Below, piece after piece: positions 7,565 through 8,806 of a stretch of 64,000 nt of DNA. Every line of letters starts with the position of its first letter. Position 1 is the first letter of the stretch. The translations under genes and the position numbers were made by a program. The DNA is taken from positions 1 through 64,000 of the forward strand of contig JAIYDL010000022.1 in assembly GCA_027487515.1 (NCBI GenBank). The letters run 5' to 3'. The stretch comes from Pseudomonadota bacterium (GTDB lineage: Bacteria; Bdellovibrionota; Bacteriovoracia; Bacteriovoracales; Bacteriovoracaceae). Under the pieces are notes generated by a model, which was not told the DNA's origin, made no database searches, and worked only from the letters and a program-made list of their open reading frames with translations.

Positions 7565-8806
7565 CTAGGACTGCCAGTCTAGCTTGCGGTAAAAGAAGAA
7601 CCCGAGGCCCAGCATCACCGTGACCGGAAGGAAAACGGCGAGGGGGATCGGGATGACTTCCTTCTTCGCCGCGCTCACCAGTGAAAAGTAGAGACCGTAG
7701 TAGACCAGGAGGCAGAGGAGTCCGACGACCCCGGAGCTCTTCGACTTGCCCCGGTTCCCCTTGATGCCGAGGGTGAAGCCCAGGAAACAAAAGATGAAAC
7801 AAATCAGCGCTCCGTTCTTTCGATTCCAGTACTCGTAGCGGGCATTGAAGAACTCTTTTTTATTAAAGTCATAGGCCTTCCGTGCTTCCGCTTCGGTCAT
7901 GGTCAAAACGCCCTGAAGTTCTCTCGAGGTGAGCATGGTCTCCTTGATGCTGAACTGGTCTTCGAACTGCTTTTGCGAAATGGGAAAGACGTACTTCTGG
8001 AAAAGGATCTTCTCCACTTCCCCCGCACCGAGAAGCCCCACGATGTTTCCGTCGTAGAGAGTCAGTGTGAGCTTCTCGGAGAGGGTCCCGGGAGAGCGCT
8101 CGAAGAGGAGTTCACCCCGGTCCGCAAAGATCACGCGCTCGGACTGCTCGGCCTCATTTTCTTCCCCGTCTTTCTCCTCTCTTGTTTTTTCTTTTCCAGC
8201 TTCTTCCTTCCCGACTTTTTCTTTCGCGACTTTTTCTTTCGCGGATTTCTCTTTTCCTACTTTTTCTTTCACGTGAAGAAAAACTTCATCGAGGTTACGG
8301 CCAAACTTGGTGGACCGCGAGGCGAAGAGAGTGATGCCGGGGATCGCCGTGAAGAACTGGCCCTCTTTGATGCCGGCCAGGAGACCGCTCGAGGTGAGGT
8401 AGGTGACTTTCTGCCGGAAGGCCTTGTTCGAGAGAGGAATGACCGTCTGATTGAGTTGGTAGACACTGGCCGAGAGAAGGCCTGCGACGAGGAGAAACGG
8501 GATGAGAATTCGAAGCTTGGTGAGGCCTCCGGCACGCATAGCAATATACTCTGAGTCAGCGGAGAGCCGATTCAGGCAGTAGATCGTAGAGAAAAACACT
8601 GCGATGGGCAATGAAAGTGGGACGAAGGTCAGAGCGATGTTTCCCACGAGCTTAAGGATGAACCAAAGCGAGACATCCCGGGTCACGAGGAGCTCCGTCA
8701 TCCGGAAAAGCTCAAAGGTCAAAAGGAAGCAAATGAAAAACACCGTGCTGAGGACAAGGGGAAGGATGAATTGGGCGGCGAGGTACCGTTGCAGCAGGAG
8801 TTTCAT
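7565..8806 (-). CDS. lptF: LptF/LptG-family lipopolysaccharide export permease with a repeat insertion
   Basis: 413 residues. Three N-terminal TM segments (about 10-30, 50-77, 98-118), a periplasmic beta-jellyroll region and three C-terminal TM segments match the YjgP/YjgQ family that, with LptB2, extracts LPS from the inner membrane. Family marks seen: RYLAAQFI start, LPIAVFFSTIYCLNRLSADSEYIAMRAGG, and the terminal FFYRKLDW. Residues 180-214 are an unusual insertion of seven Lys/Glu-rich pentapeptides in the jellyroll, coded by a 15-bp tandem repeat. An LptF rather than LptG assignment is a best guess; no partner gene is adjacent. Confidence 0.84.
   Translation of the reverse strand: MKLLLQRYLAAQFILPLVLSTVFFICFLLTFELFRMTELLVTRDVSLWFILKLVGNIALTFVPLSLPIAVFFSTIYCLNRLSADSEYIAMRAGGLTKLRILIPFLLVAGLLSASVYQLNQTVIPLSNKAFRQKVTYLTSSGLLAGIKEGQFFTAIPGITLFASRSTKFGRNLDEVFLHVKEKVGKEKSAKEKVAKEKVGKEEAGKEKTREEKDGEENEAEQSERVIFADRGELLFERSPGTLSEKLTLTLYDGNIVGLLGAGEVEKILFQKYVFPISQKQFEDQFSIKETMLTSRELQGVLTMTEAEARKAYDFNKKEFFNARYEYWNRKNGALICFIFCFLGFTLGIKGNRGKSKSSGVVGLLCLLVYYGLYFSLVSAAKKEVIPIPLAVFLPVTVMLGLGFFFYRKLDWQS
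8165..8269 (-). repeat. 15-bp minisatellite (7 units) inside lptF
   Basis: Seven consecutive 15-base units, in frame, encode KEKVG, KEKSA, KEKVA, KEKVG, KEEAG, KEKTR and EEKDG. On the plus strand units such as ccgactttttctttc and gcgactttttctttc are nearly identical. Because the unit is a multiple of three, copy-number change would lengthen or shorten the periplasmic segment without a frameshift. Confidence 0.9.

Follow-up and report, generated by a model that had tools for sequence, protein, structure and literature searches.

The LPS-export transporter is essential in E. coli, and the lptF gene in the 64,000-nucleotide stretch of a Bacteriovoracaceae genome analysed here (the window), from a relative of Bacteriovorax, carries, within its coding sequence, a tandem array of 15-bp units. 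How did such an array come to lie inside this gene, and does the loop that it encodes serve a purpose? The best-supported account, to which we assign a probability of roughly 0.75, is that replication slippage expanded a tolerant surface turn of LptF.

The family of the gene product is clear from its match to PF03739, which covers residues 7-407 of the protein and positions 1-352 of the 353-position profile (E 1.1e-60; 206 bits against a gathering score of 27.9) and makes it a member of the LptF/LptG permease family. The NCBIfam models favor LptF (149.4 bits) over LptG (71.1 bits), with a score below the 230-bit cut-off of the LptF equivalog (TIGR04407). A second family member in the same genome (G000:C3) is LptG-like and fills the LptG place. 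An AlphaFold2 model built with eight relatives was of modest quality (mean pLDDT 67.7, pTM 0.57). Its top Foldseek match is LptF of Enterobacter cloacae (6mit_F, E 5.2e-13), the top matches being LptF/LptG chains, and its VIA match to 5x5y_F has a Z of 25.4; the predicted fold has the six helices of LptF, and helices 3 and 4 flank a jellyroll. The name LptF for this product rests on its best match, on its fold and on the LptG-like second copy in the genome, and not on the TIGR04407 cut-off.

From position 8269 down to 8165 the array encodes the pentapeptides KEKVG, KEKSA, KEKVA, KEKVG, KEEAG, KEKTR and EEKDG. TRF reports 8186-8270 (period 15, 5.7 copies, 74% matches) with a score of 86, the top row of four in the window at a score of at least 40, while 30 dinucleotide-shuffled copies of the window reached 60 at best. 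The autocorrelation of the 105 bases at lag 15 is 0.69, a value reached by none of 20,000 codon shuffles (seven in-frame lags tested). An origin of the array by chance is excluded. The units are more alike than chance would give, the period is divisible by three and the array lies inside a gene, as in an intragenic in-frame tandem repeat; the seven Lys/Glu-rich pentapeptides described in the earlier note were confirmed, with exact coordinates, by the unit table, TRF and the shuffles. Pairwise identity among eight units, counting the degenerate last one, ranges from 7 to 14 of 15 bases. The value of 14 is found only for units 3 and 4, and every other pair shares 7-13. Because these two units are adjacent and nearly identical, one fairly recent duplication is plausible from the sequence. 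The earlier note had taken degenerate units as a sign against recent slippage, which holds for most pairs, diverged as they are, but not for units 3 and 4. Separately, a possible link from the AKEK motif to the 11-mers of late-embryogenesis-abundant (LEA) proteins was dropped, as LptF_LptG is the sole Pfam domain in the product.

Table 1. Features of the lptF locus, in window coordinates.
Feature	Positions	Strand	Basis
lptF, 413-aa LPS-export ABC transporter permease (LptF/LptG family)	7565-8806	minus	PF03739, NCBIfam, Foldseek
Predicted beta strand preceding the insert, residues 171-182, overlapping at its end with the first residues of the array	8261-8296	minus	AlphaFold2, DSSP
Imperfect in-frame 15-bp array, seven Lys/Glu-rich pentapeptides, residues 180-214	8165-8269	minus	TRF, unit table, shuffles
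Units 3 and 4, 14/15 identical, the sole pair with the look of a recent duplication	8210-8239	minus	unit table
Weak, degenerate eighth unit, EENEA	8150-8164	minus	7-10/15 bases shared with other units
Predicted beta strand following the insert, residues 221-236	8099-8146	minus	AlphaFold2, DSSP

Where the array sits in the protein bears on whether it could be tolerated. Residues 182-221 are predicted to be disordered (AlphaFold2 block pLDDT 41, 41, 33 and 29); a short helix modelled at residues 186-198 is doubtful. A model of LptF from the closest sampled relative (G009) places the same two strands at residues 171-181 and 192-207; between them, residues 183-191 form a short turn of low confidence. 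Taken together, the strand positions, the G009 model and the fold matches indicate that the array lengthens one beta-hairpin turn in the periplasmic jellyroll. The structural prediction thus agrees with the earlier placement of the array inside this domain, setting the insert, as a disordered segment, between two strands. By sequence alignment, the insert falls at the turn after residue 182 and opposite residue 179 of Klebsiella LptF. The insert alone (42 residues) gave no matches to solved structures at E ≤ 1.

To ask how widely the array is shared, we compared 109 LptF-like loci within the family, at one genome per species; a class-level search yielded genomes of this same family only. The set comprises 25 loci from the genus, where a search with the LptF protein found a match in 25 of 26 genomes (none in G006), and 84 from 83 of the 92 other family genomes (G035 contributing two). 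Measured between conserved anchors, the segment is 62 residues long in the window genome; G009 has 32, and the range over the remaining 107 loci is 24-33. Two of these 107, L105 (26 bits) and L128 (21 bits), are probably LptG paralogues, with a normal turn length of 26 each; the turn of the LptG paralogue L002 is likewise normal, as judged by eye. Thus the array is indeed absent from normal LptF, and among the species sampled the window species alone has it. The comparison of copy number that had been proposed for related strains can be read here at the level of species, with the array in the window species and none in G009, whose LptF is 90% and 93% identical to that of the window over two matched stretches. 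Either the array arose in the window species or it was lost elsewhere; at species level, an origin here would be the simpler history. As a separate observation, the lptF turn of G009 (L039/L004) is 6-8 residues above the usual length and contains a slip-prone run of eight G. Searches of the open PMC literature for LptF insertions, tandem repeats and Bacteriovorax LPS found no paper on this repeat locus.

The codons of the insert differ from those around it. Lysine is encoded by AAA at 11 of 12 positions, whereas the remainder of lptF and six neighboring genes use AAA at 47 of 180 (Fisher P 8.5e-6), and third-position GC is 0.38, compared with 0.74-0.75. Such a bias would fit slippage of an A-rich seed, and not selection on amino acids alone acting through the usual codons. 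In the account that we favor, the seed would have been a set of purine-rich Lys, Glu and Gly codons where the LptF jellyroll makes a short beta-hairpin turn. Replication slippage would have expanded it in 15-bp steps after the split from the closest sampled relative, and the units would then have decayed through point mutation. Steps of 15 bp preserve the reading frame and the turn would face solvent, outside the folded core, so the protein may have accommodated the longer loop, a flexible and near-neutral Lys/Glu tail, with its fold intact. That slippage was the mechanism, that it was recent and that the outcome was nearly neutral is what we infer from these data.

Some observations count against this account. 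Expansion is not common at this turn: among the 104 other aligned loci its length differs by no more than 8 residues, and variation is greater at two other sites of the alignment (after residue 262; around residues 307-313). (This count used 105 rows, leaving out L105, L128, L025 and L026, of which the last two are partial or broken genes with normal turns of 26 and 25.) The glutamate codons of the insert have no significant bias (P 0.25), and a search of the whole window genome for the K/E pentapeptide pattern found it at lptF only, with no dispersed family of this repeat. Finally, the units have diverged yet still encode Lys and Glu, a pattern that could also reflect weak selection to retain a charged spacer.

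Tandem arrays of other kinds are, in turn, readily found in this genome. In 772,523 sampled bases of a total of 3,406,840, seven arrays outscore that of lptF in TRF: a 27-bp and a 15-bp array (Lys/Ala- and Ala/Glu-rich), an 18-bp, a 96-bp and a 24-bp array, and two at contig ends. The 18-bp array (10.3 copies in TRF) lies in a multi-pass membrane protein without a Pfam match (L162:3265-5016, G000:C2). Counted by eye, this protein has 8 KPEV motifs in the window genome and 3 in the sister species G009; a search for homologues recovered one in G009 and none in five other genomes of the genus. Since seven arrays outscore that of lptF and the KPEV count differs between the two species, expansion and contraction of in-frame arrays is ordinary in the window genome. 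The 27-bp array (8 copies) forms a Lys/Ala/Pro-rich tail, histone-H1-like in appearance, at L175:11852-12067 (G000:C2). Similar 24/12-bp Lys/Ala-type arrays at the ends of contigs C17 and C18 (L158:1-85 and L159:7-113) are possibly halves of one gene at an assembly break.

The partners of LptF have a feature of their own. Outside the window, a single 346-aa open frame (G000:C7:6966-7856, L136) contains both an LptC (PF06835) and an LptA/LptD_N (PF03968) domain. Its NCBIfam scores are 56.6 bits for LptA (cut-off 71.7) and 33.8 for LptC (cut-off 38), both under the cut-off. In the complete genome G025, the counterpart (L134) passes for LptC (52.8 against 38) and falls under the cut-off for LptA (53.7 against 71.7), and LptB (375 bits, cut-off 240) adjoins it, a gene order checked in G025 only. 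The arrangement is also present in G009 and G008. Across the 56 family genomes, LptC is hit in 46 and LptD_N in 47, and in 36 (by hand count) non-overlapping hits of both lie in a frame of equal length on one contig. On its domain content, we read this frame as a natural LptC-LptA fusion. In the open PMC literature searched, including the available portions of PMC10094684 and PMC4986956, we recognised no paper describing one. A single polypeptide would set the proportion of LptC to LptA in the bridge, and for Lpt biology this side observation, which extends across much of the family, is more useful than the array.

One alternative is adaptive: a long Lys/Glu loop on the LptF jellyroll could alter the docking of LptC (here LptC-LptA) or the handling of LPS, with the array kept, and its length changed, for that purpose. 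LptC docks on the jellyroll of LptF, through which the exit path of LPS also runs (PMC9972910 and PMC12738788, in their accessible parts); one jellyroll residue, R212, changes LptC dependence, according to the accessible text of PMC4986956; and the conservation of Lys and Glu in most units, despite divergence of the DNA, points the same way. Tuning of LptC, LptA or LPS interactions by loop length, as raised in the earlier note, is possible by analogy but unsupported here; loops in the jellyroll domain can matter: in Pseudomonas an LptG loop touches LptC (accessible text of PMC12738788). Yet a comparable loop is found in none of the relatives among the 109 family loci, and the insert is predicted to be disordered. 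It also aligns earlier in the chain than R212, R223 and Y230, which the available part of PMC9972910 includes in the LptC-facing LPS exit site of E. coli LptF. Nor is there a simple electrostatic account: 12 K and 1 R are nearly balanced by 13 E and 1 D, which leaves the insert almost without net charge. We therefore consider an adaptive spacer unlikely.

A different possibility is that the array is a contingency locus, in which in-frame slippage yields LptF length variants for selection, an idea put forward for intragenic repeats in other bacteria. The 15-bp period keeps the frame, one pair of units is nearly identical, and Legionella genes show copy-number differences between strains (PMC2639597, accessible portion), but most units, sharing 7-13 of 15 bases in all pairs except that one, seem too diverged for frequent slippage, making this quite improbable. 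The boldest form of the functional idea, in which the array is a length-adjustable Lys/Glu arm that reaches the LptC-LptA bridge and alters LPS hand-over in this lineage of predatory bacteria, seems to us very unlikely. Least credible of all is that the array was mis-assembled, or its consensus miscalled, so that the true length of the gene differs in either direction: tandem arrays are error-prone, but this one is degenerate, in frame and about 105-120 bases long, in a 96,623-base contig with an intact 413-aa gene, and diverged units are a rare outcome of such errors.

Slippage in a tolerant turn is thus the reading that we carry forward, and under it the locus would mark a permissive site, in which a folded periplasmic domain of LptF can take about 38 extra, predicted-disordered residues in one turn, in one lineage. 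If copy number varied between strains, the array would offer naturally occurring LptF loops of graded length. Compared with LptF of LptB2FG (PF03739; 6mit_F, 5x5y_F), the window protein appears to be the same six-helix permease with a periplasmic jellyroll, matching PF03739 across its whole length, but it has about 36-38 residues more in one hairpin turn. With the intragenic in-frame repeats of Legionella pneumophila, as described in the available part of PMC2639597, the array shares a period that is a multiple of three, a location inside a gene and a copy number that differs between lineages; unlike them, it lies in a turn of a folded domain of an essential transporter and is known from one genome. 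It also resembles the low-complexity regions of prokaryotic proteins in being a Lys/Glu-rich segment, with slippage one proposed origin; but whereas PMC6821194, in the text accessible to us, emphasizes conserved low-complexity regions, the LptF insert is confined to one species.
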